From Pseudosulfitobacter pseudonitzschiae (GTDB lineage: Bacteria > Pseudomonadota > Alphaproteobacteria > Rhodobacterales > Rhodobacteraceae): a DNA stretch of 64,000 bases. The position numbers were made by a program, and so were the translations under genes. Of this stretch, positions 42,264 to 64,000 are shown piece after piece; the first letter of the stretch is position 1, and every line of letters starts with the position of its first letter. The stretch spans positions 3,224,001 through 3,288,000 of the forward strand of contig NZ_CP022415.1 of the NCBI RefSeq assembly GCF_002222635.1, read 5' to 3'. The notes under the pieces are model-generated. The model did not search any database, had not been told where the DNA came from, and saw only the letters and a list, made by a program, of their open reading frames with translations.

Positions 42264-42266
42264 ACT

Positions 42267-43850
42267 TCAGGCAACCTTTTGTGCGCGGCGCCACAGGTCC
42301 GCTTCGAAATGTTTCAGTGTCCGGCGCGCGGCGGGGGAATAACCCTGTCCGGTTGACGGGTCGAGTTCGGGGAAAAGGGCGCAGATTTCGTTCAGGATAT
42401 CTTGTTCAAAGCTCTTTTCGGTCTGCGGTCCGGGCAGGAAGGATTCTGTAGCCAGACCTTCCGAAAAAACCACCTGATGCTTGTCGAACATCAGGTGGAC
42501 ATAGGTCACCTCGCCGCCGGCACGGGCGCGCACCGAACGGTCGTTCACCAGATCTTTGGCGGCGACCAGCACCTCTGCCTCTCCGAACAGCAGTTCTGCC
42601 AGACTGTCGCGGATCAGGATGCGGTGTTCGGGCGACACCAGCAATTCGCGGTGGGTTCCAAATGTGTTGGCACGCACGCAAACCGGCGCGAATTTTCCAG
42701 CAGCGGCCACAGTGCGCTGGCCGATCCAGCGCAACGGTTGGGCACCTTCGTCTTGTGTCATGACCAGATCACCGGGCACCAGGTCTTCGACCCGCGCTTC
42801 GCCCGTGGGCGTCGCGATCATCGTGCCCGCCACAAAGCAGGGGATCGAGCTGACATTGACGTAACCGATGTCGGTGTTGTCACCATTGTCGACCTGATAG
42901 GTAAAATTGAAGTCTTCGGAGTCGCCGTCACCGATCAGTGTCAGCGTGCCGTCGGCGTTCAGCATCACCTGCTGGCCAGTCGGCAAGGTGATGGTCTGAC
43001 CGGCGACCACAGCCATGTTGTTGATATGGGTGATGGTCAGCGAGCCGTTGCCGTTGTTGACGTCGTTGGCGAGAACATCAACGACTTTGGAACCATCAGG
43101 TGCCACATGCGCGTCGTCGGTGTTGGCAATCAGCAGGGTTTGCATCGAATCCGCCGCGATCAGCAGGTTTGAATCGTAGTTGGAATCGGACACGTCCGCG
43201 ATGCCGATGCGGATCGAGTTCACTGATCCCGAGATAACCGGAATCGTCAGGGTCATGGTGATGGTCAGCCCGTCCATCTCGGTGTTGAACGCGTCATTCG
43301 AGTTGTCCAGAAACATGTTCAAGTTGTTGGTCTGGTTCACGTTCCCGGGGTCGGTATCGCCGTCACCAATCGTCATTTCGACGAACTGCCCGTTGATCCA
43401 CACACCAACAAAATCCTGATAGACCGAGTTTTGGAATTCAGGGTACTCTTCGGACGAGAACACGAACTGCATCGTCATCACGTCACCGGTAGGGATAAAG
43501 TCGATGTCGAGCCAGGCAGCGTCATACGTGTTGGCGCCAGCCTGCTGGTTGAACATCGAGTCGTTGGACCGGCCTGACGTGTTTGTAGAGGTGCTGGTAG
43601 ACTGGTTCGAGCTGCCCCAACGATTGGTAAAATCCTGCGCATCACCAGTGGACAGAATCACGCCCGTGTCACTGGGTGTGGCGCCGGGTGCTACGTTGTC
43701 GCCATTGCTGTAGATGCCGGCCGAGTCGCGGTCACCGGAGTAGGTTGCGCCGACCACTGTAACGCCATCACCAAAAATGGTTTCGGCCATATCCGTGGCA
43801 TCGGTGCCTTCACGCACCGTCCGGATAGGAAGTTCACTTGCTGCGACCAT
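42267..43850 (-). CDS. Choice-of-anchor L/cadherin-like protein with C-terminal Hint domain
   Basis: A 527-residue protein. The N-terminal choice-of-anchor L domain (about 1-235) contains YDAAWLDIDFIPTGDVMTMQFVFSSEEYPEF and Asp/Asn-rich turns likely binding Ca2+. A tandem Ig/cadherin-like repeat (about 245-325, VDVLANDVNNGNGSLTITHINN) precedes the Hint domain, which starts at C338 (IPCFVAGTMIATPTGEARVEDLVPGD) and has the EHRILI block later. No signal peptide is seen, so export by a type I or other system is likely. Common surface/adhesin design in Roseobacters; self-cleavage is possible. Confidence 0.82.
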   Translation of the reverse strand: MVAASELPIRTVREGTDATDMAETIFGDGVTVVGATYSGDRDSAGIYSNGDNVAPGATPSDTGVILSTGDAQDFTNRWGSSNQSTSTSTNTSGRSNDSMFNQQAGANTYDAAWLDIDFIPTGDVMTMQFVFSSEEYPEFQNSVYQDFVGVWINGQFVEMTIGDGDTDPGNVNQTNNLNMFLDNSNDAFNTEMDGLTITMTLTIPVISGSVNSIRIGIADVSDSNYDSNLLIAADSMQTLLIANTDDAHVAPDGSKVVDVLANDVNNGNGSLTITHINNMAVVAGQTITLPTGQQVMLNADGTLTLIGDGDSEDFNFTYQVDNGDNTDIGYVNVSSIPCFVAGTMIATPTGEARVEDLVPGDLVMTQDEGAQPLRWIGQRTVAAAGKFAPVCVRANTFGTHRELLVSPEHRILIRDSLAELLFGEAEVLVAAKDLVNDRSVRARAGGEVTYVHLMFDKHQVVFSEGLATESFLPGPQTEKSFEQDILNEICALFPELDPSTGQGYSPAARRTLKHFEADLWRRAQKVA

Positions 43851-50720: not shown

Positions 50721-51605
50721 TTAGCTTTCGACGATTCCGCGCAGACGTTCAGAGCGGCGGCGTAGCAGTTCGACCACGGTCAACAAAAGGATCGAGATGC
50801 CGACCAGAAGCGTGGCAACTGCAAGGATCGTTGGGCTGATTTGTTCGCGCAGGCCTGTGAACATCTGCCAAGGTAGGGTCTTTTGGCCGGCTGAACCCAC
50901 GAAAAGGACCACCACGACTTCGTCGAATGAGGTGATAAAGGCGAACAGGCCGCCCGAGATCACGCCGGGCAGGATCAGAGGCATTTGCACGCGAAAGAAA
51001 GTGGTGACGGGGTTTGCGCCCATATTCGCCGCCGCGCGGGTCAGAGAGCGGTCGAAGCCGACAAGTGTCGCCGTTACCGTGATGATAACGAAGGGAATGC
51101 CAAGCACTGCGTGTGCCAGAATGACTTTGACGTAGCCGACAAAGTTTTTGTCCAGGCCCAGCGACGATTCAAGCCAGTTGCCCAAGGCCGAGTAGAAAAA
51201 GAACATGCCCGTGGCCGAGATGATCAGGGGAACGATCATTGGCGAGATCAGGATCGCCATGATGGTGCCTTTGAACGGGACGTGGCTTTGTGACAGGCCG
51301 ATTGCCGCCAGTGTGCCCAGCGAAACCGAGATGATCGTCGCAATTGGTGCGATGATCAGCGAGTTTTTCAGACTACGCTGCCACTCGTTGTTGGTGAAGA
51401 AGTCCTCATAGTGCTTCAGCGAATAGCCGTCGGGATCCAGTCGGAGCATTTCCGGCGTGAAGGTGAAGAAGTTCTCGGCGTTGAAGCTGAGCGGCATCAC
51501 CACAATGATCGGAGTGATCAGAAAAATGAAGATCAGCGCGCAGATCACGCGGAAGGCGTAGTACCAGATCCGCTGAGGCATCGTTGCATAAGGAGGCAGG
51601 CCCAT
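50721..51605 (-). CDS. ABC transporter permease, PotC-like (importer 1)
   Basis: A 294-residue inner-membrane permease with about six transmembrane helices. It has the typical start ...FRVICALIFIFLITPIIVVMPLSFN and the EAA signature AAANMGANPVTTFFRVQMPLILPGVISG (about residues 192-219) that contacts the ATPase. With the neighbouring permease, binding protein and ATPase it forms a spermidine/putrescine-type importer. Substrate not decided. Starts 6 bases after the potB-like stop. Confidence 0.9.
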   Translation of the reverse strand: MGLPPYATMPQRIWYYAFRVICALIFIFLITPIIVVMPLSFNAENFFTFTPEMLRLDPDGYSLKHYEDFFTNNEWQRSLKNSLIIAPIATIISVSLGTLAAIGLSQSHVPFKGTIMAILISPMIVPLIISATGMFFFYSALGNWLESSLGLDKNFVGYVKVILAHAVLGIPFVIITVTATLVGFDRSLTRAAANMGANPVTTFFRVQMPLILPGVISGGLFAFITSFDEVVVVLFVGSAGQKTLPWQMFTGLREQISPTILAVATLLVGISILLLTVVELLRRRSERLRGIVES

Positions 51606-51611
51606 AATCAG

Positions 51612-53312
51612 TTATCCCAGTTTCACGTTGTCGATGCCTACGATCCGGTCGTAGCACCAGTAAAGGACGAGAACGACCGCCAGCAGGATCGACCCCAGTG
51701 CGGCCGCGAGGCCCCAGTTAAGCGAGGAGGAAATGTGGTAGGCGATGCGGTTGGAGATGAACACGCCTTTGGTTCCGCCGACGATTTCGGGGGTGATATA
51801 GTAGCCGATGGACAAGATAAACACGAGGATCGAGCCCGCGCCGATGCCCGGAATCGACTGGGGGAAGTAGACGCGCCAGAAAGCAGTCCAGTTTGTGGCA
51901 CCCAGCGATTTGGCTGCACGGAGATAGGTGGGCGGAACGGTCTGCATCACGGAATACATCGGCAGAATCATGAACGGCAGCAGAATGTGCGTCATCGCGA
52001 CGATCGTACCGAACTGGTTGTTGATCATGACCAGACGGTCGGCGTCATCGACAAGGCCGATCCACACCAGCACGTCGTTGATCACACCCTGTGATTGCAA
52101 CATCACCTTCCACGCCGATGTTCGCACCAGAAGTGAGGTCCAGAATGGCAGCAGCACGAGGATCATCAGCAGATTTGCTCTGGATGCAGGCAAGTTCGCC
52201 AGCAGCCATGCCACCGGATAGCCCAGCAGGATGCACGAACCGGTGATCATCAAAGACATGACCAGAGTGCGGCCAAAAAGTGTCAGCAGGATCTGTTTTT
52301 CTTCCGGCTGCCAGGCAAAACCGTCGGGTGTCTTCTGCGCGTCGATGGCATTCAGGAAATAGCCGGCGGTATATTTGGCCGAATGTGTCTGTAGGGTTTC
52401 CCACGCTGTAACATTGGCCCAGTCCTGGTCGATCTCGGCAAAAGTATCGGTATAGGACGGGATTTCGAAATCGACAGCCTGCGCCTGTTGCAGCAAGGCG
52501 GCGCGCTCACCGCTTAGGCCCGACAGGTCGGCGGTTTTCAACTCTTCCAGCAGCGCCAGCGAAACCAGTTCCCACGGGGCGCGGTTGGTCGGAACACGTT
52601 CTGCGTCAGTGACTTCGAAGATGGCCCATTCGGTATATGTGCGCGCGGTGCGCGGCAGAAGTGCGGCAATCTCGGCGCTTGGCACAAAGTCCATGTCTGC
52701 GCTGGCTGGACCGTCGTTCAGACGACCGATGCGACCGCGTGTGTTTTTCAGCAGGGTTGTGTTGCCCTCACCGTCACCGGCGTCCATCAGCGCGTACCAG
52801 GTTTCGCCATTCTCGAAGGCAGGAACGGCGTCTTCCAGTGCTTTGGCTGCATCCTTGGCCAGATCATCAACCTTGCGGCCAGATTGGCGGAACAGGGACG
52901 AAATGCCGGTTTGCTCGTAGTTCAGCCGCGAGCCGAGGCGGGTGTGTTTCTTTGCCTCAGTGGCGACGAACAGGTCGTCGTACATGGCTTTGTAAACAGC
53001 TTCGGAGGGCAGTTCGCCCGACGCGGCGTCCCAGCTTGCCAGTTCTTGCACCGCGTAGGGCAAGGTGTTGGCCACAATGTCATTTTCCACCGACCGGAAC
53101 AGCATCGAGCCGATCGGGATAATGAAGGTAACCAGAACAAAGATCAGCAACGGCGCGATCAACAACAACGCCCGGCCCTTCTGGCGGCGCAATGCGCGCC
53201 CCAGACTGCGTTTCAGTGGCGTGCCATCCGCTGCAAGAACGGGTCCTGCATCTACGGGTGCAACAGGCACGGGGCCTGCGACGGCGTCATCATCTTTTGA
53301 GTTGCTCATCAT
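51612..53312 (-). CDS. Enlarged ABC transporter permease, PotB-like, with big periplasmic insertion (importer 1)
   Basis: A 566-residue permease, nearly twice the usual ~290. Helix 1 is at about 47-72 (GRALLLIAPLLIFVLVTF). A soluble stretch of about 265 residues (about 75-340), rich in Asp/Glu/Ala, follows. The rest is standard PotB, beginning ...LFGRTLVMSLMITGSCILLG and including the EAA motif AAKSLGATNWTAFWRVYFPQ. The insertion sits between helix 1 and helix 2, so it is expected on the periplasmic side and might contact the binding protein. Compare the 291-residue PotH-like protein at 62891. Start choice between the two adjacent ATGs is uncertain. Confidence 0.88.
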   Translation of the reverse strand: MMSNSKDDDAVAGPVPVAPVDAGPVLAADGTPLKRSLGRALRRQKGRALLLIAPLLIFVLVTFIIPIGSMLFRSVENDIVANTLPYAVQELASWDAASGELPSEAVYKAMYDDLFVATEAKKHTRLGSRLNYEQTGISSLFRQSGRKVDDLAKDAAKALEDAVPAFENGETWYALMDAGDGEGNTTLLKNTRGRIGRLNDGPASADMDFVPSAEIAALLPRTARTYTEWAIFEVTDAERVPTNRAPWELVSLALLEELKTADLSGLSGERAALLQQAQAVDFEIPSYTDTFAEIDQDWANVTAWETLQTHSAKYTAGYFLNAIDAQKTPDGFAWQPEEKQILLTLFGRTLVMSLMITGSCILLGYPVAWLLANLPASRANLLMILVLLPFWTSLLVRTSAWKVMLQSQGVINDVLVWIGLVDDADRLVMINNQFGTIVAMTHILLPFMILPMYSVMQTVPPTYLRAAKSLGATNWTAFWRVYFPQSIPGIGAGSILVFILSIGYYITPEIVGGTKGVFISNRIAYHISSSLNWGLAAALGSILLAVVLVLYWCYDRIVGIDNVKLG

Positions 53313-53331
53313 CGGTCTCGCTTTGGAGGGT

Positions 53332-53357
53332 GGTGGGGGCCGGACATGGCCCCCACC
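53332..53357 (-). terminator. Strong intercistronic hairpin after the importer-1 binding protein gene
   Basis: A perfect 10-bp GC stem GGTGGGGGCC (53332-53341) / GGCCCCCACC (53348-53357), loop 6, lies in the 68-base gap between the binding protein and permease genes. No T-run; probably protects the upstream message, which is needed in excess. Confidence 0.55.
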
Positions 53358-53380
53358 GAAATTATGCGATCAAGCGGGGC

Positions 53381-54475
53381 TTATTGTGCCAGCCACGCTT
53401 GGAAGCGCGCGTCGATGTCGTCGCGGTAGTCAGCCCAGAACGTGTAGTTGTACAGGAACGTGTTCTCGGCGTTCGCGGGGTCAGTCGGCATGTGCTGTTT
53501 CATGTTCTCGGGGACCAGCGGTGCGGAAGACGCACGTGCAGGGCCGTAAGAAATGTAATTTGCCTGATCCGCCAGACGCTTGGTGTCTGTTGCGAATTTC
53601 ACAAAGTCTTTTACACGTGCCAATTTGTCGTCAGGCAGACCGGCCGGGATGATCCAACCGTCAAGGTCGAACACCTGCGCGTCCCACATCATGGCGACGG
53701 GCTGGTTTTGCTCTTCGATGACAGAATACAGGCGACCGTTATAGGTCGAACCCATGAAGATTTCGCCATCTGCCAGCAGCTGGGGTGTGTCAGCACCGGC
53801 CGACCACCAGATTACGCTGTCTTTGATGGTGTCGAGCTTGGCCAGAGCCTGCTCTTGACCTTCGGCAGTTGCCAGAACGTCGTAGACTTCGTCTTTTGCG
53901 ACGCCGTCACACAGCAGAGCCCATTCCATGTTGTTGATGGGACGCTTTTCCAGCGAACGTTTGCCCGGATATGTTTCCAGATCAAAGACGTCGCAGATTT
54001 CGTCAGGTGCATCGACGCCTTCGGGAACCATGTCTGTGCGGTAGCCGAATGTTGTCGAATAAACAATCTGCGGGATGTAGCAGTCGGAAACGATCAGGTC
54101 GCCGAAGTCATCCGTCGCCGAGGAACCATCATCGCCTTCGGCGAGCAGTTCGTCGGGATCATATTCCATCGCCAGACCTTCGTCGCACAGGCGAATGGCG
54201 TCAGCAGCCACAACGTCGACCAGATCCCAAGTGATGTTACCGGCTTCGTTCATGGCGCGCAGTTTGGCCACAGCTTCGTTCGAGCTTTCATCCCAAACGA
54301 TGGTAACTTCTGGGTGCATTTCGGCATAGGGCTCAGCATAGGCTTTGAGCTGGCTGTTCTGATAGGCGCCGCCCCAGGAAACGATGGTCATTTCGCTGGA
54401 CATTTCCTGCGCAACCGCGACCGAGGCGGCGGCGGTGAGTGCAGAAGACGCAAGTAGCGTTTTCATCAAATTCAT
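53381..54475 (-). CDS. Polyamine/solute-binding protein, PotD-like (importer 1)
   Basis: A 364-residue periplasmic protein. It has a signal peptide (about 1-22, LLASSALTAAASVAVAQ), then the PotD/PotF-class start MTIVSWGGAYQNSQLKAYAEPY. Conserved acidic pocket regions follow (LVDVVAADAIRLCDEGL, WSAGADTPQLLADGE, WIIPAGLPDDKLARVKDFVKF). The ATG at 54475 has GGGAGA upstream. It is closer to the generic spermidine/putrescine/opine-type group than to canonical PotF; the ligand is unknown. Confidence 0.88.
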   Translation of the reverse strand: MNLMKTLLASSALTAAASVAVAQEMSSEMTIVSWGGAYQNSQLKAYAEPYAEMHPEVTIVWDESSNEAVAKLRAMNEAGNITWDLVDVVAADAIRLCDEGLAMEYDPDELLAEGDDGSSATDDFGDLIVSDCYIPQIVYSTTFGYRTDMVPEGVDAPDEICDVFDLETYPGKRSLEKRPINNMEWALLCDGVAKDEVYDVLATAEGQEQALAKLDTIKDSVIWWSAGADTPQLLADGEIFMGSTYNGRLYSVIEEQNQPVAMMWDAQVFDLDGWIIPAGLPDDKLARVKDFVKFATDTKRLADQANYISYGPARASSAPLVPENMKQHMPTDPANAENTFLYNYTFWADYRDDIDARFQAWLAQ

Positions 54476-54545
54476 TGATAGTTCTCCCATTTGTATGCCC
54501 GTTGGGTTCGGAGGCCATGATTGGGCTTGATCACAGCCTCATAGA

Positions 54546-54570
54546 AGGCGCATCCCGAAAGGGTGCGCCT
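54546..54570 (-). other. Intercistronic hairpin between importer-1 ATPase and binding protein
   Basis: A 10-bp stem AGGCGCATCC (54546-54555) / GGGTGCGCCT (54561-54570, one G-U), loop 5, lies in the 110-base gap. No T-run. It may act as a partial terminator or RNA stabiliser. Confidence 0.4.
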
Positions 54571-54585
54571 GCCGTGCCTTGGATG

Positions 54586-55686
54586 CTATGCGTCCAAAGC
54601 GCGGCAATCTTCAGGCAACCAGCCGATTTCGATCTGGGTGCCAGGTGTCAGACGCTCCTGATCCGGTGCGTTCCGGGTTTTGATGACAAAGTCATCAGTG
54701 CCAGCCACACGCAGACGGGTGCGGAAAATGTCGCCCATATAGATGAATTCAAGCACTTCGGCCTTCAGCGTTCTAGCGCCGGGCATCAAGCGTTCTTTGT
54801 TCATCTCGACTCGTTCGGGGCGGATCGACACACGGGTACGTTCACCAACTTCGGTGACGTTCACCGGAACAGCGTCGATCAGATCGCCGCCGTCCAGTTG
54901 CACAACGGCGGTGCCGTTGGTGATTTCCTTGATTTCGCCCATCAGTGTGTTGTTCTCGCCAATAAACTGCGCGACAAAACTGTTTTCAGGCTTTTCGTAC
55001 AGTTGATCCGGCGGTGCCAGCTGTTGAATGCGACCGTTTTCAAACACGGCAACGCGGTCGGACATGGTCAGCGCTTCTGTCTGGTCGTGTGTCACATAGA
55101 CCACGGTAATGCCCAGCTCGTGCGCCAGATTGGTAATCTCGAACTGCAGGGTTTCGCGCAACTGTTTGTCAAGCGCACCCAGAGGTTCGTCCATCAAGAC
55201 CAGTTCGGGTTCAAAAACCAGTGCCCGCTCCAGCGCGATCCGTTGTTGCTGGCCACCCGACAGTTGTGTGGGGCGGCGTCCGGCGAAATCGTTCATCTGC
55301 ACCATGCCAAGCGCGCGATGGATTTTTTCCTCGCGGTCGGACTTGCCGATCTTGCGGACCTCCAGAGGGAAGGCCAGATTTTCGGCCACAGTCATGTGCG
55401 GGAACAACGCATAGTTCTGGAACACCATGCCGATGCCACGCTTATGCGGTGGAATGTTGTTGATCGATGTTCCGCCTAGACGGATGTCGCCATGTGTTGC
55501 TGTTTCAAATCCCGCCAGCATCATCAGGCAAGTGGTCTTGCCCGATCCAGATGGGCCGAGCATCGTCAGAAACTCGCCCCGTGGCATGGAAAGGTTCAAG
55601 TCTTTGACGACGAGGCTCACGCCGTCATAGCTTTTTTGCACGCGTTCGAACTCTACAAACGCCGCATCAGTCGATGTGTTAGCCAA
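54586..55686 (-). CDS. ABC transporter ATPase, PotA-like (importer 1)
   Basis: A 366-residue ATPase. Walker A is GPSGSGKTT (about 44-52), the signature is LSGGQQQRIALERAL, Walker B is LVLMDEPLGALDK and the switch His is in THDQTEALTMSD. A C-terminal regulatory TOBE-like domain runs from about 280. The TTG at 55686 is the likely start: AGGGAG is six bases upstream, and the longer frame reaching 55953 has no PotA-like content. It is the first gene of the leftward importer operon, divergent from the M24 gene. Confidence 0.92.
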   Translation of the reverse strand: MANTSTDAAFVEFERVQKSYDGVSLVVKDLNLSMPRGEFLTMLGPSGSGKTTCLMMLAGFETATHGDIRLGGTSINNIPPHKRGIGMVFQNYALFPHMTVAENLAFPLEVRKIGKSDREEKIHRALGMVQMNDFAGRRPTQLSGGQQQRIALERALVFEPELVLMDEPLGALDKQLRETLQFEITNLAHELGITVVYVTHDQTEALTMSDRVAVFENGRIQQLAPPDQLYEKPENSFVAQFIGENNTLMGEIKEITNGTAVVQLDGGDLIDAVPVNVTEVGERTRVSIRPERVEMNKERLMPGARTLKAEVLEFIYMGDIFRTRLRVAGTDDFVIKTRNAPDQERLTPGTQIEIGWLPEDCRALDA

Positions 55687-55953
55687 ATTCGGCTCCCTGA
55701 ATTTACGACGACGGTGAACCCGCCTTGTTGGCCCAAGTAAAGCGACCACGGTCCAGTATTGCAACCGGATTGGTAGAAAACAGTTGGTTGCGCCCACAAT
55801 GCAGGCATATTTTCTGCTAAATCCTTGAAAACAGGACAATCGCCTGCGAGAGGGGCTGCTTTTTGAGCATGCACTTTCGCAGGAATCGCAAAAACACGTA
55901 GGTGTTGCGTCCCGTGACGACACAAAGCAAGGTCCAGAAAACGGAGTACGCAC
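55687..55953. promoter_or_regulatory. Divergent importer-1 / M24 intergenic region
   Basis: This 267-base region separates the divergent potA-like and DoeA-like genes and should carry two promoters. A loose inverted pair GCAACC...GGTTGC occurs in its left half, near 55770-55795. ACGGAG precedes the ATG at 55954. No TTGATCAA-type motif like those near 59720 and 60565 is present. Confidence 0.4.
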
Positions 55954-57132
55954 ATGATAATAAAGAATCTGCCCTTTGCTTCTGCAGAGTACGATCGTCG
56001 CATCGCACTGGTGCGAAGTGCGATGGATGTAGCAGGAATTGATACGCTGTTCGTCACCGACCCCAGCAATCAGGCATGGCTGACCGGCTACGACGGATGG
56101 TCATTTTATGTGCATCAGGGCGTGATCTTGCAGGGCGAGGGCGACCCGATCTGGTGGGGACGGCGTCAGGACGCCAGTGGTGCGCGGCGCACGGTCTGGA
56201 TGGATGACGACAACGTGCGCGGCTATGCCGACCATTTTGTGCAATCCACCGAACGCCATCCGATGCAGGAACTGGCGGGCATTCTGCAAGAACTGGGTGC
56301 CGAGCACATCGGCGTCGAGATGGACAACTATTATTTTTCGGCCAAGGCATTTGCGGTGATGCAATCCAGCCTGCCGGACGCCAGATTTTCGGATGCCACT
56401 GCGATGGTCAACTGGAAGCGCGGCGTGAAATCCGAGCCGGAGCTGGAGTATATGCGCAACGCGGCGCGGATTTCGGAAAAGATCATCGACGGCTTGCTTG
56501 AGCGGGTCGAACCCGGCGTGCCCAAGAACGAAGTCGTCGCGGAAATTTATCGTGACGCGGTGCGCGGTGTGGATGGCGCTTGGGGCGATTATCCCGCGAT
56601 TGTGCCACTGTTGCCGTCGGGAACGGACGCTGCTGCGCCGCACCTGACATGGGACGGTCGCCCGTTTGAAACCGGCGAGGCGACCTTTTTCGAGATTTCC
56701 GGCTGCTATCGCCGCTATCACGCGCCGTTCTGCCGTTCGCTGTTTCTGGGCACGCCACCTGATTTCCTGAAGCGTGCCGAGGCCGCGCTGGTCGAGGGAC
56801 TTGAGGCTGGATTGGAGGCCGCCCGCGCGGGCAATCGCGCCTGTGACATTGCCAACGCATTGGCTGCGCCGCTTGAGGCGGCAGGGATCGAGCGCGGCGA
56901 ACGCTGTGGTTATCCGATCGGGCTAAGCTATCCACCCGATTGGGGCGAGCGCACGATTTCCCTGCGCGTGACCGACGAAACCGTGCTGGAGCCGAATATG
57001 ACCTTTCACTTTATGCCCGGCCTATGGATGGCCGATTGGGGGCTTGAGATCACCGAAAGTATCCGTATCACCGAGGACGGCCCCGCCGAGTGTTTCTGCG
57101 ACCGTCCTCGCAAGATGTTTGTCAAACCGTGA
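55954..57132 (+). CDS. M24-family ectoine hydrolase-like enzyme (DoeA/EutD type)
   Basis: A 392-residue pita-bread-fold enzyme. The segments TDPSNQAWLTGYDGWSFYVH (about 36-55), EMDNYYFSAKAF (about 124-135), PHLTWDGRPFETGEATFFEI and CGYPIGLSYPPDWGERT match the ectoine hydrolase DoeA as I recall it, including its lack of the usual M24 metal ligands. In that pathway it opens ectoine to N-acetyl-diaminobutyrate. The call by recall is strong at family level; the substrate is not proved, since the usual DoeB partner is missing here. Coupled to the M20 gene by a GTGA overlap. Confidence 0.8.
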   Translation: MIIKNLPFASAEYDRRIALVRSAMDVAGIDTLFVTDPSNQAWLTGYDGWSFYVHQGVILQGEGDPIWWGRRQDASGARRTVWMDDDNVRGYADHFVQSTERHPMQELAGILQELGAEHIGVEMDNYYFSAKAFAVMQSSLPDARFSDATAMVNWKRGVKSEPELEYMRNAARISEKIIDGLLERVEPGVPKNEVVAEIYRDAVRGVDGAWGDYPAIVPLLPSGTDAAAPHLTWDGRPFETGEATFFEISGCYRRYHAPFCRSLFLGTPPDFLKRAEAALVEGLEAGLEAARAGNRACDIANALAAPLEAAGIERGERCGYPIGLSYPPDWGERTISLRVTDETVLEPNMTFHFMPGLWMADWGLEITESIRITEDGPAECFCDRPRKMFVKP

Positions 57133-58271
57133 GCCTGCGCCAGACTATCGATTTGCTGGAACAGCTGATTGCGATGCCCACGGTGTCAGCGGACAGCAAT
57201 ATGGTAATGATCGCTGAACTGGCCCACCGGCTGGAAGATGCGGGCGCGCGCACAGATGTGATGTTGGCACCTTGTGGCACCAAGGCGAACCTGTGGGCCA
57301 GCATTGGCCCCGAGGCACCGGGTGGTTTGCTGTTGAGCGGGCACACTGACGTGGTGCCGGTCGAAGATCAGGACTGGACCTCGGACCCGTTTGAGATGCG
57401 CGAGGCTGATAGCCGTCTGTACGGGCGCGGCACCTGCGACATGAAGGGGTTTATCGCCGCGGCTGTGGTGATGGCAGGCAAGGTAAAGCCGCAAAAGCCT
57501 GTGCATTTCGCCTTTACCTACGACGAAGAGGTGGGGTGCATCGGCGCGCGCGCGCTGGTGCCGGAACTTCAGGCGCGCGGGTTGCAGCCAGCGATGGCAG
57601 TGATCGGAGAGCCGACGGGGATGCGTGTGATCGAAGGTCACAAAGGCTGCTGCGAATACACCACCCACTTTACCGGCCTCGAAGGGCACGGCAGCGATCC
57701 GGGGCGCGGTGTGAACGCCGCTGAATATGCTGTACGCTATGTTATCCGTCTGATGGAATTGCGCTGTGATCTGATGGCACGCGCCCCTGCCACCAGTCGG
57801 TTCGAGCCGCCGTGGACCACCATTAACATTGGTCGCGTTTCAGGCGGCGTGGCGCACAACGTGATCGCGGGCAAAGCCGAGGTCGAATGGGAAATGCGCC
57901 CGGTGGTGCAAGACGATGCGCGTTTCGTAAAGCAAAGCATCGAAGCCTTTGTCGAAAACGAAATGCTGCCGATGATGCGCACCATCTATCCACAGGCCGA
58001 CATCCGTACCGAAACGATTGGCGAAATAGCAGGCCTGCAACCGATGGAGGTGAACACCGCCCGCGATGTGCTGGCCGGATTGCTGGGCACCAACAGCGCC
58101 GAACTGGTCCCCTTCGGGACCGAGGCGGGGTTGTTTCAGGAGATGGGGATGGATGTGGTGGTCTGCGGGCCCGGACATATTGCCCAGGCTCACAAACCGG
58201 ATGAATTTGTCGAGATCGACCAGATGAAAGCCTGTCTGGCGATGTTAGAGCCGCTAATGACAGGCGCCTGA
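57129..58271 (+). CDS. M20-family deacetylase, ArgE-like
   Basis: A 380-residue zinc hydrolase. Metal/catalytic residues are in SGHTDVVPV (H72), GRGTCDMKGF (D104), DEEVGCIGA (E133) and GEPT, with a late His in GPGHIAQAHKPDEFV. It resembles acetylornithine deacetylase ArgE, which removes an N-acetyl group from a diamino acid. The GTG start overlaps the M24 stop, so the two are translationally coupled and likely work on one substrate chain. Its true substrate is an inference. Confidence 0.88.
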   Translation: MSLRQTIDLLEQLIAMPTVSADSNMVMIAELAHRLEDAGARTDVMLAPCGTKANLWASIGPEAPGGLLLSGHTDVVPVEDQDWTSDPFEMREADSRLYGRGTCDMKGFIAAAVVMAGKVKPQKPVHFAFTYDEEVGCIGARALVPELQARGLQPAMAVIGEPTGMRVIEGHKGCCEYTTHFTGLEGHGSDPGRGVNAAEYAVRYVIRLMELRCDLMARAPATSRFEPPWTTINIGRVSGGVAHNVIAGKAEVEWEMRPVVQDDARFVKQSIEAFVENEMLPMMRTIYPQADIRTETIGEIAGLQPMEVNTARDVLAGLLGTNSAELVPFGTEAGLFQEMGMDVVVCGPGHIAQAHKPDEFVEIDQMKACLAMLEPLMTGA

Positions 58272-58278
58272 CGACCCC

Positions 58279-59676
58279 TCAGGATGCGGCTTTAAACAGC
58301 CCCTGTTCCTTGATCTGGGCATAGGATTCATCCAGCGCGGTGCGGGCACGTTTGCCCATTTCCGTGATCTCTTCAGGGGTGATGATCAGCGGAGGCGAGA
58401 TCACCATGCGGTCATAGACGTGACGCATGATAAGGTTGTTTGCAAAACTGCGTTCACGCGTCATGTAACCGGCGGTGCCCGCATCGGCCGCAAATTTGGC
58501 GCGGCTGTCTTTGTCCGGTGTCAGCGCCAGCGACGCCATCATGCCGACAATCTTGGTTTCGCCCACCATCGGGTGATCGCCCAGACCGTGCCACATCTCG
58601 GCCAGTGCCGGGGCTGCCACGTTACGGACGTGGTCCAGCAAACTTTCGTCTTCCATGATCCGCAGGTTTTCCAACGCGACGGCGCTGGCGACGGGGTGAC
58701 CGGAATAAGTATAGCCGTGGTTGAACTCACAGGCGTTCATCACCTCGGCCACTTCGTCCGACACGATTGACCCGCCGATGGGCTGGTAGCCGGATGACAG
58801 ACCTTTGGCGATGGTCATAATGTCGGGCTTGATTCCCACTGTGGTTGATCCGAACCATTCGCCGGTGCGGCCAAAGCCGCAGATCACTTCGTCGGCGATC
58901 AACAGGATTTCGTATTTGTCGCAGATGCGCTGGATTTCCGGCCAGTATGTTGATGGCGGTACGATAACGCCGCCCGCGCCCTGAATCGGTTCGGCAATGA
59001 AGGCGGCGACACGGTCTTCTCCCAGTTCAAGAATCGCTTTTTCCAGTTCTTGCGCACGTTGCAGCCCAAAATCTTCGGGCGTTGCGCTGCCGCCCTCGGC
59101 CCACCAGTTGGGCTGGTCGATGTGGTGAATATCAGGGATCGGAAGCCCGCCCTGTGCGTGCATGGGGGTCATCCCCCCCAAGCTGCCCGACCCGACGGAC
59201 GAGCCGTGGTAGGCGTTCTTGCGGCTGATGATGATGGATTTGGACGGCTTACCCTTTTGCGTCCAATAAGTGCGCACCATGCGGATGTTGGTGTCGTTCG
59301 CTTCTGATCCCGAACCGGCAAAGAACACATGGTTCAGATGCGCTGGCGCCAGTTCTGCAATCTTGGCGGCAAGTGCGATGACCGGTGCGTGCGATGTCAT
59401 GAAAAAGGTATTATAAAAGGGCAGTTCGCGCATTTGGCGCGCAGCAACGTCCGCCAGTTCGCCGCGGCCATAGCCGATGTTGACGCACCACAAGCCGGCC
59501 ATACCATCCATGATATGGTTGCCCTCACTATCCGTCAAATAGACGCCATCGGCACGGGTGATGATACGCGCACCCTTGGCCGCCAGTTCGTTGTTGGTGG
59601 TAAATGGGTGCATGTGGTGTGCGGCATCCAGCGCCTGCAATTCGGCGGTGGGCAAATGGTTGGTAATTGCGGCCAT
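58279..59676 (-). CDS. Class III aminotransferase, putrescine/polyamine (SpuC)-like
   Basis: A 465-residue PLP enzyme. It shows HHMHPFTTNNELAAKGARII, FAGSGSEANDTNIRMVRTYW, IADEVICGFGRTGEWFGS with the Asp contacting PLP, and the Lys in TIAKGLSSGYQPIGG (about residue 286). It is similar to omega-amine:pyruvate and putrescine transaminases. A DoeD-like diaminobutyrate transaminase role is also possible given the neighbours. AAGGAC lies upstream. A TATGATCAAAT motif lies 41-54 bases before the start. Convergent with the M20 gene, 7 bases apart. Confidence 0.9.
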   Translation of the reverse strand: MAAITNHLPTAELQALDAAHHMHPFTTNNELAAKGARIITRADGVYLTDSEGNHIMDGMAGLWCVNIGYGRGELADVAARQMRELPFYNTFFMTSHAPVIALAAKIAELAPAHLNHVFFAGSGSEANDTNIRMVRTYWTQKGKPSKSIIISRKNAYHGSSVGSGSLGGMTPMHAQGGLPIPDIHHIDQPNWWAEGGSATPEDFGLQRAQELEKAILELGEDRVAAFIAEPIQGAGGVIVPPSTYWPEIQRICDKYEILLIADEVICGFGRTGEWFGSTTVGIKPDIMTIAKGLSSGYQPIGGSIVSDEVAEVMNACEFNHGYTYSGHPVASAVALENLRIMEDESLLDHVRNVAAPALAEMWHGLGDHPMVGETKIVGMMASLALTPDKDSRAKFAADAGTAGYMTRERSFANNLIMRHVYDRMVISPPLIITPEEITEMGKRARTALDESYAQIKEQGLFKAAS

Positions 59677-59716
59677 GACGGTGTCCTTTTTATCCGAAAT
59701 GCGGTTGAGTGCATAA

Positions 59717-59730
59717 TATGATCAAATATT
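59717..59730. promoter_or_regulatory. TGATCA-centred site upstream of the aminotransferase
   Basis: TATGATCAAATATT (59717-59730) contains the palindrome TGATCA followed by AAAT, as does the site at 60561. It lies in the 80-base gap between the regulator and the aminotransferase it may control. Confidence 0.45.
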
Positions 59731-59756
59731 GCACTGTCAATCCGACTGGTCCCGAA

Positions 59757-60467
59757 TCACCGTGGTGCGGGATCTTCGGACAATGCGATTCGGACCTGTA
59801 CCATCCCTTGGCGAATGTCTTCGGCAATGGCGTTGCGCGCGGCGTCTGCGTCTCTGTGTTTTAGCGCCTCGAGCAGTTCGGCATGTTTGTCCGGCAGGTT
59901 CGAGGTGCCGAACCGCCCGCACACGACCCGTAGTGAGGGCCCAAAGCGTAGCCAAAGTGCGTCAGCTGACTGTGCCAGAATGGGGGCGTTCGCAACCGCA
60001 TAAAACGTCGTGTGAAAGGCGTGGTTTAGCCGTAAATAGCCGCTGATATCACCTGCGGAGATCGCTTGGTTCAGGCCGTTGTCTATGGTGGTTAGTGTCG
60101 CGATATTGTCGGAAGAGACATATTTTGTCGCCCGAAATGCCAGCTCGGGTTCCAGATTTAACCGCATAAATTCAAGTTGTTCCAAGGTATGTAAATCCAG
60201 AACCGGCACCGATGCGCGGCGGTTGCCCTGCATGACCAGTGCGCCTTCGGCGGTCAGCTTACGGATCGCCTCGCGCACGGGCGTCATACCCGCGTCCAGC
60301 AAGGCCGTAAGACCCTGGATCGTGATCGGCTGACCGGGGGCCAGATCACCAAACAGAACTGCATCGCGCATCTTTGCATAGACTGCTTGGTGGGCAGGCG
60401 TCTTGGCGATCTGCGCTGCGGGGGCGGCTTTGCTGCGAAGCGCCTCTTTTTTCAGCGTTGCATTCAT
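59757..60467 (-). CDS. GntR-family regulator with FCD domain (FadR subfamily)
   Basis: A 236-residue regulator. The N-terminal winged helix-turn-helix spans about 28-95 (AVYAKMRDAVLFGDLAPGQPIT, GMTPVREAIRKLTAEGAL). The helical FCD ligand-binding domain (about 110-230) has metal-ligand-like His/Asp residues (LRLNHAFHTTFY, DKHAELLEALKHRDADAARNAI). The ATG at 60467 fits the family start; a 30-residue upstream extension is rejected. Between aminotransferase and the divergent potF operon, so it probably controls both. Confidence 0.9.
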   Translation of the reverse strand: MNATLKKEALRSKAAPAAQIAKTPAHQAVYAKMRDAVLFGDLAPGQPITIQGLTALLDAGMTPVREAIRKLTAEGALVMQGNRRASVPVLDLHTLEQLEFMRLNLEPELAFRATKYVSSDNIATLTTIDNGLNQAISAGDISGYLRLNHAFHTTFYAVANAPILAQSADALWLRFGPSLRVVCGRFGTSNLPDKHAELLEALKHRDADAARNAIAEDIRQGMVQVRIALSEDPAPR

Positions 60468-60560
60468 TGCGATCTCACTTTCTGGCACCTCTATGGCGAA
60501 CCGCTTGCACGGCTCCATTTGCCATGAAAGCATAAAACATCTTGCCGAAAAGGGCAAAAC

Positions 60561-60568
60561 TTGATCAA
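60561..60568. promoter_or_regulatory. TTGATCAA palindrome upstream of the PotF-type operon
   Basis: A perfect 8-bp palindrome TTGATCAA followed by AT lies in the divergent regulator/potF gap. The shared core TGATCAAAT with 59719-59727 suggests a common regulator, the nearby GntR protein being the obvious candidate. Confidence 0.45.
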
Positions 60569-60615
60569 ATTACACCAAGCCGGGATCAACTCGGTCTGAT
60601 GAACGGGAGAATATT

Positions 60616-61701
60616 ATGACTAAGATGATGCTTAGCACAGTTGCAGCTTTGGCTGTCGTTGCCACTTCGGCAATGTCCGAAGAGGTGCGCGTTTACAACT
60701 GGTCTGACTATATAGACGAAGCCTTGCTGACCAAGTTCGAGGAAGAAACAGGCATTGACCTGATCTATGATGTTTTTGACAGCAATGAAGTGCTGGAAAC
60801 CAAAATGCTGGCCGGATCATCCGGCTATGATGTTGTAGTGCCGTCGGGCACCTTCTTGCAACGCCAGATCAGTGCGGGCGCTTTCCAGAAACTGGATAAA
60901 TCCAAGCTGTCGAATCTGGACAACATGTGGGACGTGATCAGCAAACGTGTCGGCAAATACGACCCCGGCAACGAATATGCGATCAACTATATGTGGGGCA
61001 CCACCGGCATTGGTGTGAACATCGACAAAGTCAAAGAAGTGCTGGGTGAGGATGCACCCGTCAACTCGCTTGCGTTGATCCTTGATCCTGCCAATATGGA
61101 AAAACTGGCCGATTGCGGCGTTCACTTTCTTGATGCACCGGCTGAAATCATTCCGGCCGCTCTGAATTACATCGGCGAAAACCCCGATGCGCAAGACGCC
61201 GAGACCATCAGCAAAGCCGAGCCTGTTCTGTCCGCCATCGCACCCTTTGTTCAGAAATTCCACAGTTCTGAATATATCAATGCACTGGCAAATGGCGACA
61301 TTTGTGTGGCTGTTGGCTGGTCGGGTGACGTTTTGCAGGCGCGCGACCGTGCTGCCGAGGCCGATAACGGCGTGACCATCGAATACTATGCGCCAAAAGA
61401 AGGTGCGCTGATGTGGTTCGACAATATGGCGATCCCCGTAGACGCGCCAAACCCCGATGGCGCGCACAAGTTCCTGAACTTTATCATGGACGCGCAGAAT
61501 ATGGCGGCGGCATCGAACTATGTCTACTACGCCAACGGTAATCTGGCGAGTCAGGAGTATCTGGTCGAGGACGTGATCGGCGATACGGCGATCTATCCTG
61601 ACGCCGCGACGCTGGAAAACCTCTACACCACCTCGCCGTATGATGCGAAAACCCAGCGCGTCGTCACGCGCATGTGGACCAAGGTCAAATCGGGCACCTG
61701 A
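60616..61701 (+). CDS. Putrescine-binding periplasmic protein, PotF-like (importer 2)
   Basis: A 361-residue binding protein. It has a signal peptide (about 1-21). It starts VRVYNWSDYIDEALLTKFEEETGI, the classic PotF/PotD N-terminus, and continues with DSNEVLETKMLAGSSGYDVVVPSGTFLQRQI and GDICVAVGWSGDVLQARDRA. It ends TRMWTKVKSGT. Strong similarity in motifs to putrescine-binding PotF, more so than importer 1. GGGAGA precedes the start; the TTGATCAA site lies about 50 bases upstream. Confidence 0.92.
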   Translation: MTKMMLSTVAALAVVATSAMSEEVRVYNWSDYIDEALLTKFEEETGIDLIYDVFDSNEVLETKMLAGSSGYDVVVPSGTFLQRQISAGAFQKLDKSKLSNLDNMWDVISKRVGKYDPGNEYAINYMWGTTGIGVNIDKVKEVLGEDAPVNSLALILDPANMEKLADCGVHFLDAPAEIIPAALNYIGENPDAQDAETISKAEPVLSAIAPFVQKFHSSEYINALANGDICVAVGWSGDVLQARDRAAEADNGVTIEYYAPKEGALMWFDNMAIPVDAPNPDGAHKFLNFIMDAQNMAAASNYVYYANGNLASQEYLVEDVIGDTAIYPDAATLENLYTTSPYDAKTQRVVTRMWTKVKSGT

Positions 61702-61711
61702 ACTTGATTGG

Positions 61712-61738
61712 GGGGCGCGGCCATCGGGACCGCGCCCC
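61712..61738 (+). terminator. Intercistronic GC hairpin after the PotF-like gene
   Basis: A perfect 9-bp stem GGGGCGCGG (61712-61720) / CCGCGCCCC (61730-61738), loop 9, with no T-run, lies 11 bases past the stop. It sits exactly as the hairpin of importer 1 sits after its binding protein gene; a differential-stability role is likely. Confidence 0.55.
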
Positions 61739-61763
61739 AACTTCTCTGTGATTTCTGTGAGGA

Positions 61764-62894
61764 ATGATTTTGGCCCAGACCGTATTCGCCCCTTGGGATG
61801 ATCCGCAGCAAAAGCCTCTGATTCAGTTTGTGGGCGTGACCAAGCGCTTTGGCGACTTTGTGGCGATCGACAACCTGACTCAGGATATTTACGAAAAAGA
61901 ATTCTTTGCCCTGCTTGGCCCTTCGGGTTGTGGTAAAACCACGATGATGCGGATGCTGGCGGGCTTCGAGACACCAACAGAAGGTTCTATCCTGCTTTCG
62001 GGGCAGGATATTGCGGGTGTGCCGCCGAACAAGCGCGCCGTGAACATGATGTTCCAGTCTTATGCGCTGTTCCCGCACCTGACAGTCTGGGACAATATTG
62101 CCTTTGGTTTGCGCCGGTCTGACATGCCCAAAGACGCCATTGCCGCCCGCGTCGAGGAAATGTTGAAGCTGACCCGTCTTTCCAAGTTCGGTCGTCGCAA
62201 GCCACACCAGATTTCTGGGGGCCAACGTCAGCGAGTGGCGCTGGCGCGGTCGCTGGCCAAGGCGCCTAAACTGTTGCTGCTGGACGAACCGTTGGGCGCG
62301 CTGGATAAAAAGCTGCGACAGGACACCCAGTTTGAACTGATGGACATTCAGGAAACCACCGGCACCACCTTTGTCATCGTGACCCACGATCAGGAAGAGG
62401 CGATGACCGTCGCCAGCCGTGTCGCCGTGATGGACGAGGGGCGTATCATTCAGGTGGCCACCCCCGAGAAGATCTACGAGGTGCCAAACAGTGTCTACGT
62501 TGCCGATTTCATCGGCGATGTGAACATTCTGGAAGGTACGGCCAAGCCCAACGGCACTGAAAGCTATGCCATTGACTGGGGCAACGGCGCACCGGTCACC
62601 GCCACCAGCGTGCGGCCTTTCACTGACGGGCAAAAAGCATTTCTGGCGATCCGCCCCGAAAAAATCGCGATCAGCGCCGAGTGTCCAGCGGATGCCGTAA
62701 ACGCAGTGCAGGGCAAGGTTCTGGACATCGCTTATCTGGGCAATCTGTCGACCTATCACGTTGAACTGCCCACTGGTCAGGTGATTAAGGCGCAATCCGC
62801 CAACACACGCCGTGTGTCACGCCGTGCATACACATGGGAAGACCCTGTCTGGCTCAGTTGGAGCGCCACTGCCGGCGTGTTGTTGGTATCGTGA
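61764..62894 (+). CDS. Putrescine-type ABC ATPase, PotG-like (importer 2)
   Basis: A 376-residue ATPase. Walker A is GPSGCGKTT (52-60), the Q-loop is MMFQSYALFPHLTVWDNIAFGL, the signature is ISGGQRQRVALARSL, Walker B is LLLLDEPLGALDKKL and the switch is THDQEEAMTVASRV. A C-terminal TOBE-like domain follows from about 300. The stop overlaps the next permease start (GTGA). Confidence 0.93.
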   Translation: MILAQTVFAPWDDPQQKPLIQFVGVTKRFGDFVAIDNLTQDIYEKEFFALLGPSGCGKTTMMRMLAGFETPTEGSILLSGQDIAGVPPNKRAVNMMFQSYALFPHLTVWDNIAFGLRRSDMPKDAIAARVEEMLKLTRLSKFGRRKPHQISGGQRQRVALARSLAKAPKLLLLDEPLGALDKKLRQDTQFELMDIQETTGTTFVIVTHDQEEAMTVASRVAVMDEGRIIQVATPEKIYEVPNSVYVADFIGDVNILEGTAKPNGTESYAIDWGNGAPVTATSVRPFTDGQKAFLAIRPEKIAISAECPADAVNAVQGKVLDIAYLGNLSTYHVELPTGQVIKAQSANTRRVSRRAYTWEDPVWLSWSATAGVLLVS

Positions 62895-63766
62895 GACGCT
62901 TTGCCCTTATAGCGGTGCCGTATCTCTGGCTGTTGGCACTGTTTCTGGTGCCCTTCGCCATCGTCTTCAAAGTTTCACTGTCGGATTTCGCTCTTTCGAT
63001 CCCGCCCTACACGCCAACCATGAAAGACGGCTTTGCCGCGCTGATTTCAGGTCTGGATTTTGAAAACTTCGTCTTTCTGACGCAGGATGATCTGTATTGG
63101 AAAGCCTATGTCAGCTCGTTGCAAATCGCATTCTTCTCGACCATTGCAACGCTGCTGGTCGGCTATCCGATGGCCTATGGTATGGCTCGCGCGCCCGAAG
63201 AATGGCGCCCGACACTGATGATGCTGGTGATCCTGCCGTTCTGGACCTCGTTCCTGATCCGCGTTTACGCGTGGGTTGGAATCCTCAGTACCGAAGGGTT
63301 CCTGAACCAGCTGCTGTTGTGGATTGGTGTGATCAACGAACCGCTGACCATCCTGAACACCAACTGGGCGGTCTATATCGGCATCGTCTATACCTATTTG
63401 CCCTTCATGATCCTGCCGATCTATGCCGCTCTCGAGCGGCTGGACGAAAGCCTGATCGAAGCCGCCGAAGACCTTGGCTGTTCGCGGATGCAAGCCTTCT
63501 GGCTGGTGACGATCCCGTTGTCGCGTAACGGCATTGTGGCGGGTTGTTTTCTGGTGTTCATCCCCGCGCTGGGCGAATTTGTGATCCCGTCATTGCTGGG
63601 CGGATCGGGTACATTGATGATCGGCAAGGTTCTGTTCGAGGAATTCTTTGCCAACCGCGACTGGCCCGTGGCCAGCGCCGTTGCTGTAATACTGCTATTG
63701 ATCCTGATCATTCCGATCATCCTGTTCCAGCGCAACGAACAGCGGCAGCAGGAGGCAGAACAATGA
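62891..63766 (+). CDS. Putrescine-type ABC permease, PotH-like (importer 2)
   Basis: A 291-residue permease of normal length with six predicted helices. It starts RRFALIAVPYLWLLALFLVPFAIVFKVSL and has the EAA signature AAEDLGCSRMQAFWLVTIPLSRNGIVAG (about 206-233). The periplasmic loop after helix 1 is only about 60 residues, a useful contrast to the enlarged permease at 51612. GTG start at 62891 in a GTGA overlap with potG. Confidence 0.92.
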   Translation: MRRFALIAVPYLWLLALFLVPFAIVFKVSLSDFALSIPPYTPTMKDGFAALISGLDFENFVFLTQDDLYWKAYVSSLQIAFFSTIATLLVGYPMAYGMARAPEEWRPTLMMLVILPFWTSFLIRVYAWVGILSTEGFLNQLLLWIGVINEPLTILNTNWAVYIGIVYTYLPFMILPIYAALERLDESLIEAAEDLGCSRMQAFWLVTIPLSRNGIVAGCFLVFIPALGEFVIPSLLGGSGTLMIGKVLFEEFFANRDWPVASAVAVILLLILIIPIILFQRNEQRQQEAEQ

Positions 63767-64000
63767 ACCGTCTCAGCCCGTTCAATGTCGTCAGCCTGAC
63801 GTTCGGCTTCGCCTTTTTGTACCTGCCAATGCTGATTCTGGTGATCTTCAGCTTTAACGAATCCAAGCTGGTCACAGTCTGGGCGGGGTTTTCGACCAAA
63901 TGGTACGGGACCCTGATCCAGAACGAGGCGTTTCTGGACGCCGCTTGGGTTACGCTGAAAGTCGCCGTGATGTCGTCGACACTCGCCACGGTTCTGGGCA
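63763..64000 (+). CDS. Putrescine-type ABC permease, PotI-like (N-terminal part, cut by window edge)
   Basis: The first 79 residues of a second permease (MNRLSPFNVVSLTFGFAFLYLPMLILVIFSFNESKLVTVWAGFSTKWYG...), which is the typical PotI/PotC beginning with FNESK...WYGTL. The ATG overlaps the potH stop (ATGA) and has GGAGG upstream. It completes importer 2; the rest lies beyond the window. Confidence 0.9.
   Translation, partial: MNRLSPFNVVSLTFGFAFLYLPMLILVIFSFNESKLVTVWAGFSTKWYGTLIQNEAFLDAAWVTLKVAVMSSTLATVLG

Follow-up and report, generated by a model that had tools for sequence, protein, structure and literature searches.

A DoeA-like hydrolase gene paired with an ArgE-type M20 deacetylase gene as a probable variant of ectoine catabolism in the Rhodobacteraceae

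We analysed a 64,000-nucleotide stretch of the Pseudosulfitobacter pseudonitzschiae genome (hereafter the window), in which, within positions 50721-64000, a gene for an M24-family enzyme resembling the ectoine hydrolase DoeA/EutD is followed directly by a gene for an ArgE-type M20 deacetylase. Comparison of sequences, genomes and gene neighbourhoods indicates that this M24/M20 pair is very probably an ectoine catabolic bimodule, in which the M20 enzyme replaces the usual deacetylase DoeB/EutE, and most likely enables this marine bacterium to feed on ectoine, a protectant against salt; the partner-swapped pair is a well-supported candidate for a new variant of ectoine catabolism. The pair is flanked by a PotABCD-type importer (importer 1) on one side, and by a class III transaminase gene, a GntR/FCD regulator gene and a second importer (importer 2) on the other. 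Open frames and family matches agree with an earlier sequence-only reading that had described this layout, and both the pattern of presence and absence across genomes and the gene neighbourhood strongly support its suggestion that an ArgE-type M20 enzyme is a non-orthologous replacement of DoeB.

The comparison covered 198 genomes of the family, each representing a different genus, with the window's own included (G and L numbers below are our handles for genomes and loci). M24, counted at E<=1e-60 with partial and distant copies included, was found in 131 genomes; DoeB, counted only above the cut-off of the model TIGR02994, in 26; and the M20 orthologue, counted at an identity of at least 52% (below which a gap reaches down to 44%), in 84. 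M24 was present in all 84 genomes with M20 and in all 26 with DoeB, and the 131 M24 genomes divided into 82 with M20 only, 24 with DoeB only, 2 with both and 23 with neither. M20 adjoined M24 in 64 of its 84 genomes and lay elsewhere in 20. Fisher tests, uncorrected for shared ancestry, gave p values of 5e-22 for the occurrence of M20 with M24 and 3e-11 for the mutual exclusion of M20 and DoeB. EutC, counted at E<=1e-80, was identified in 39 genomes, every one with M24: 21 had M20 without DoeB, 11 had DoeB without M20, 2 had both and 5 neither. A normal DoeB set elsewhere in the window genome, which the earlier reading had considered, was not found, as this genome has a single DoeA-like gene and no TIGR02994 match at E<=1e-40. 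As a separate observation, genome G119 (locus L161) shows the window's gene order minus M24 between importer 1 and M20, and its M24 gene lies next to DoeB elsewhere in the genome.

The window's M24 protein matches the solved DoeA of Halomonas elongata (6twk) with 520 bits, against 79 bits for the next family (prolidase/creatinase). In a tree of 110 M24 proteins, built by a quick method with creatinase and prolidase left out, it falls inside the DoeA family, as the sequence-only reading had anticipated, within a subclade of its own beside DoeA (60 rows, Shimodaira-Hasegawa-like approximate likelihood ratio support 98). The M24 genes of 52 of these 60 rows adjoin an M20 gene by the rule of our script and none adjoins DoeB, and every DoeB-labelled row lies outside the clade. 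Comparison of 53 M20-partnered M24 proteins with those of 18 DoeB loci and H. elongata DoeA identified 86 positions conserved at 95% or more in the two types alike, and only 4 type-specific positions. The shared positions include Glu247 of the window protein, the counterpart of Glu255 of DoeA, which we take to be the catalytic residue. The positions common to both partner types argue for the same substrate.

The M20 protein exceeds the cut-offs of two ArgE models (TIGR01892, 362 bits with a cut-off of 297.7; PRK07522, 438 with a cut-off of 412), and H85, D117, E146, E147, E174 and H368, presumably the residues that bind metal and take part in catalysis in M20 enzymes, are invariant in 19 M20 orthologues. 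Its start is most likely the GTG at 57129, in a four-base overlap with the M24 stop (GTGA), rather than 57090, because the alignment of many relatives begins only at about residue 14-18. The substrate of ArgE, N2-acetylornithine, is the one-carbon-longer homologue of N-alpha-acetyl-diaminobutyrate. Unlike ArgE of arginine synthesis, the window's M20 has an ectoine-hydrolase-like gene as its genomic partner, and this context argues for a role other than on acetylornithine in arginine synthesis. Separately, L186 and L187, from genomes of 1.2-1.3 Mb in the same class, carry M20 genes whose products are 45-46% identical to that of the window and which are convergent with an aldehyde dehydrogenase gene or face one.

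Genes of ectoine catabolism (eutB, eutC, ehu, asnC, ssd and atf) adjoin the M24/M20 pair in relatives. When we compared 18 DoeB-type loci with 54 M20-type loci, a PRK07482-type transaminase was present in 11 and 19, respectively, and EutB and EutC in 8 of each. EhuB and EhuC genes are divergent to M24/M20 in L079, L080, L092 and L101. In L080, where EutB and EutC are divergent to the pair as well, EhuC and EutB lie over their cut-offs, EhuB below, and EutC over that of PRK08291 and below that of TIGR02992; in L092, EhuB exceeds its cut-off, and EutB and EutC were assigned by similarity. Outside the family, L212 (another family of the class; M20 61% identical) has transaminase, AsnC, EutC and EutB genes divergent to M24-M20, and L210 (yet another family) has M24, M20, AsnC, aldehyde dehydrogenase and transaminase genes on one strand. 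The gene order in H. elongata is doeABXCD, which we take to be the order of L210 with M20 in the DoeB slot. Among the best 80 of 590 loci found with the M20 alignment (the named loci), M24 was present in 64, an ectoine-type gene (EutB, EutC, transaminase or EhuB) in 38, importer 1 in 31, of which four had a binding protein only 44-45% identical, and an ectoine-type gene or importer 1 in 62; DoeB was found in none of the 80. The ectoine-type assignment of L245 comes solely from a 42% EutB-like match. Of 19 unlinked M20 orthologues whose loci were fetched, 7 lie beside genes of eutB/eutC/asnC/atf type and 3 beside importer 1.

The pair, the swap of partner and the pathway context are thus supported by comparison, and we infer the substrate, the order of the steps and the role of the importer. 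M24 would open the ectoine ring to yield N-alpha-acetyl-L-2,4-diaminobutyrate, as DoeA/EutD does, and M20 would deacetylate this product, a step otherwise carried out by the unrelated DoeB/EutE. The diaminobutyrate would pass to a PRK07482-type transaminase in the Atf/DoeD role and then to a semialdehyde dehydrogenase, with importer 1 as the likely uptake system. The ectoine transaminase of this genome probably lies outside the window, where we identified a PRK07482-type gene beside xseA at C1:872718 (840 bits against a cut-off of 687, open frame intact). The proposed pathway resembles the known DoeA/EutD-DoeB/EutE pathway in the M24 family and its conserved positions, in having the second gene directly downstream, and in the transaminase, dehydrogenase, AsnC and EutBC types present in the window's relatives. 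It differs in that the second gene is of M20/ArgE type and not of the AstE/aspartoacylase type of DoeB, in the PotABCD-type or EhuABCD importer beside the pair, and in the GntR/FCD gene with its own operator that occurs in some lineages. The genes of the window are as follows.

50721-51605, minus strand: importer 1 permease of PotC type (family match).
51612-53312, minus strand: importer 1 permease of PotB type with a long N-terminal part (family match).
53381-54490, minus strand: importer 1 binding protein, SBP_bac_8, a candidate ectoine/hydroxyectoine binder (family match).
54586-55953, minus strand: importer 1 ATPase of PotA type (TIGR01187, 369 bits, cut-off 355.6).
55954-57132, plus strand: M24/Creatinase_N protein, DoeA/EutD-like, proposed ectoine (hydroxyectoine) hydrolase (TIGR02993, similarity to DoeA).
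57129-58271 (open frame from 57090), plus strand: ArgE-type M20 deacetylase, proposed N-alpha-acetyl-diaminobutyrate deacetylase.
58279-59676, minus strand: class III transaminase of polyamine/omega type (PRK07480).
59757-60557, minus strand: GntR/FCD regulator.
60616-61701, plus strand: importer 2 binding protein of PotF/SpuD type.
61764-62894, plus strand: importer 2 PotG-like protein.
62834-63766, plus strand: importer 2 permease, 35% to the importer 1 PotB-type permease.

A PotC-like gene extends importer 2 beyond the end of the window. The closest M20 relatives among the 80 best loci, from Pseudosulfitobacter koreensis and a Sulfitobacter metagenome-assembled genome, are 88-89% identical and have the same gene order.

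In many relatives a GntR/FCD gene (c16) lies downstream of M20, and we identified the palindrome TTGTNNACAA (often GTTGTGCACAAC), up to about 320 bases upstream of M24, as a candidate operator linked to this gene. Among 65 named loci, the window included, on which the motif was discovered, it was present in 20 of 22 with c16 and in none of 43 without. Among 54 region loci, which share some organisms with the first set, it was found in 7 of 11 with c16 and in none of 43 without, and in shuffled sequences in 35 of 10,800. Sites occur whichever gene is divergent (importer 1, EhuB, EutB or transaminase), and an operator common to these contexts ties the modules together. Co-regulation of pair and importer, whose absence would have spoken against the sequence-only reading, is suggested in relatives by the shared operator, which the window lacks. 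Copies of TTGTNNACAA upstream of M24 were located in L227-L232, L234, L235, L237-L240, L246, L250, L255, L270, L282, L285, L289 and L292. A second palindrome, GCGTTCGA-N5-TCGAACGC, is enriched beside importer 1 and was dropped as a candidate; its window copy (55642-55662) lies inside the ATPase open frame and was thus read as coding constraint.

Importer 1, which is divergent to the M24-M20 pair in the window, is a likely uptake system for ectoine, judging from its genomic associations. Its ATPase gene is divergent to M24 in relatives too; the ATPase probably starts some 90 codons into the frame 54586-55953, because the related ATPase cluster has a median length of 366 amino acids. The binding protein, counted at an identity of at least 61%, is present in 97 of the 131 M24 genomes versus 13 of the 67 M24-less genomes, counts uncorrected for shared ancestry. 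In L227 (Pseudooceanicola atlanticus), binding protein and ATPase genes lie on one strand with transaminase, dehydrogenase, AsnC, EutC and EutB genes, divergent to M24-M20, and in L053 importer 1 occurs with EutC, EutB and an EutA-like gene below the EutA cut-off. EhuB and EhuC hold the corresponding position in the four loci named above, although importer 1 differs from EhuABCD: it is a PotABCD-type ATP-binding cassette system whose binding protein is SBP_bac_8 and not of EhuB type, and the EhuB model TIGR02995 found no match in the window genome at E<=1e-45.

That the pair degrades ectoine and importer 1 carries creatine, gamma-aminobutyric acid (GABA), a polyamine or an opine-like compound, so that its nearness is incidental or reflects broad specificity, is a serious alternative, whose chance we put somewhat below even; it overlaps the ectoine reading of the pair and disputes the importer alone. 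The 13 M24-less genomes with importer 1 weigh in its favour and against an ectoine role. Of four such loci inspected, two (L294, L295) are beside creatinase, one is beside a polyamine module and one is cut by a contig end. The nearest entries of the binding protein, solved relatives included, are named for spermidine/putrescine, GABA sensor, polyamine, MotA, agropine and mannopine, which points the same way. Against this alternative stand the strong co-occurrence with M24, the single-strand arrangement with atf-ssd-asnC-eutCB genes in L227, and the operator common to importer 1 and ectoine-gene contexts. Since importer 1 also occurs in M24-less genomes beside creatinase, ectoine is the leading and not the sole substrate candidate. 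Creatinase-type genes lie beside or near it at L294:1519-2907, L295 from 8717, L078:10736-11905, L113:7085-8254 and L290:6457-7626, which suggests creatine, or a range of amidinium/guanidinium carboxylates, as a possible cargo of importer 1; creatine, which is likewise an amidine-type zwitterion, matches this pattern too. The window genome's own creatinase-like gene is far off, at C1:3434424, and 54% identical to the L294 creatinase.

Several further results weigh against the reading of the pair as an ectoine module. The window's M24 scores 608.7 bits over its full length on the DoeA model TIGR02993, 4.3 bits short of the cut-off of 613, and one M20-partnered M24 (L121) also lies outside the 60-row clade. 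No EutB was found in the window genome at E<=1e-60 and no EutC at E<=1e-80, and the window locus has neither the operator TTGTNNACAA nor the c16 gene. The 2 both-partner and 23 neither-partner genomes depart from a simple exchange, although at least one of the latter (G036) has a distant M20, 43-44% identical, beside EutB, EutC, AsnC and transaminase genes (L171). Sub-cut-off TIGR02994 matches, not taken as DoeB, occur in 21 more genomes (47 in total at E<=1e-40), and the uncorrected ancestry behind the Fisher values counts here as well. The M20 of L210 is only 43% identical; in the M20 tree it stands with L171 next to further M20 proteins of the class and not in the main group, and it may therefore have been recruited separately. 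Finally, 9 of the 19 fetched unlinked M20 loci have neither ectoine genes nor importer 1 adjacent.

Some of these results would also be expected if the pair acted on another cyclic or acylated nitrogen compound, such as a one-carbon-longer ectoine homologue or another amidine that would give N-acetylornithine for the ArgE-type enzyme. The ArgE cut-offs passed by M20, the slight shortfall of M24 on the DoeA model and the lack of EutB and EutC at the above thresholds favour this proposal, which the sequence-only reading had offered as its second option. We consider it unlikely, as M24 keeps the positions of DoeB-partnered DoeA proteins with only four type-specific differences, and many relatives carry ectoine genes beside the pair, with EhuB and EhuC over or near their cut-offs and EutB over its own.

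The window's transaminase, GntR and importer 2 genes are a separate, ordinary polyamine module. The transaminase is of the polyamine/omega type and not the PRK07482 type of ectoine loci, and the binding protein of importer 2 matches 3ttm with 390 bits and 1a99 with 387 (PRK10682, 443 bits, below the cut-off of 636). Thus, of the two PotABCD-like importers previously proposed, both are present and differ in kind, the second having a putrescine-binding PotF/SpuD-type protein. That all of 50721-64000 is one locus for taking up and degrading putrescine/spermidine, in which N-acylated polyamine derivatives would be the substrates of M24/M20, fits these polyamine-type proteins and the recurrence in relatives of the pair followed by transaminase, GntR and importer 2, and is nevertheless very improbable and was rejected, since the polyamine binding protein lies near M20 in only 18 of the 80 best loci, L296 has transaminase, GntR and importer 2 genes beside importer 1 without M24 or M20, and the pair recurs with ectoine genes instead.

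Taking the pair again as an ectoine module, we tentatively propose, at a probability somewhat below even, a second, largely overlooked Roseobacter-type ectoine system. It would combine DoeA and M20 with a PotABCD-type importer whose cargo would be small amidinium or guanidinium carboxylates, namely ectoines and, in those relatives that have it next to creatinase, creatine. Many lineages would add a GntR/FCD regulator that binds TTGTNNACAA sites. In this family the system would outnumber the DoeB form, since of 198 genera 82 have M20 without DoeB, 24 have DoeB without M20 and 2 have both.

Within the excerpts of open-licence literature consulted, we found no description of an ArgE/M20 enzyme as a partner of EutD, or of a PotABCD-type ectoine importer, and a search on PDB entries 8jv1-8jv4 gave unrelated papers only. 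We take abgB to be an M20-type gene, of a different M20 subfamily from that of the window. Putative ectoine clusters with abgB and without eutE, which the window pair also lacks, are described for Bacillota in a study whose follow-up mainly concerned proteobacterial genomes with EutD, EutE and EutB (PMC13188858). One data set recognises ectoine catabolic clusters by the adjacency of eutD and eutE (PMC8739950), a comparison of 14 Roseobacter strains gives the ectoine transporter of R. pomeroyi as unique or nearly so (PMC10130141), and a further paper places the acetylornithine deacetylase gene argE in a GABA regulon (PMC5320631). The M24/M20 arrangement would escape surveys that rely on the usual second enzyme, and if M20 replaces EutE, ectoine use in the family would be several-fold commoner than these markers show. 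The analysis also suggests what a protein family at present annotated as acetylornithine deacetylase may do, and it yields candidates for an importer class and for a regulator that would both be new.

Elsewhere in the window genome, C1:614.7-617.6 kb (L152:8682-11571) holds a diaminopropionate-ammonia-lyase-like gene, a second M24-family gene and an EutA-like gene. This trio occurs beside importer 1 and/or M24 or M20 in L051, L053, L070, L088 and L172, and thus may be an alternative hydroxyectoine branch; L078 and L113 have the trio in part, the lyase-like gene not being seen. A search for ectoine synthesis with PF06339 gave no match in the window genome and none in the controls, and was uninformative.

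We additionally noted several features of M24 genes in relatives. The M24 gene of L004 (G097:C9:48718-49896) has an in-frame TGA. A clade of the DoeA family in L108, L123, L124, L126, L129, L133, L136 and L141 has neither DoeB nor M20 adjacent; the neighbour representatives annotated for this clade are phosphate-regulon genes (pst, phoU, phoB, phoR) and rpsB/tsf, and some of its genomes keep an M20 orthologue elsewhere. Nine neighbour representatives (eight phosphate-regulon or housekeeping, one without a match) gave no clue to another substrate. Two ehu-type loci carry a second M24 gene near EutC (L080:2849-3988 and L092:2998-4146); for the L080 copy the top-scoring model is DoeA_2 (NF038259), with 183 bits against a cut-off of 575, and the L092 copy was grouped with it by similarity. 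Apart from these genes, two adjacent Hint-domain proteins are encoded leftward at 41169-43850 of the window.

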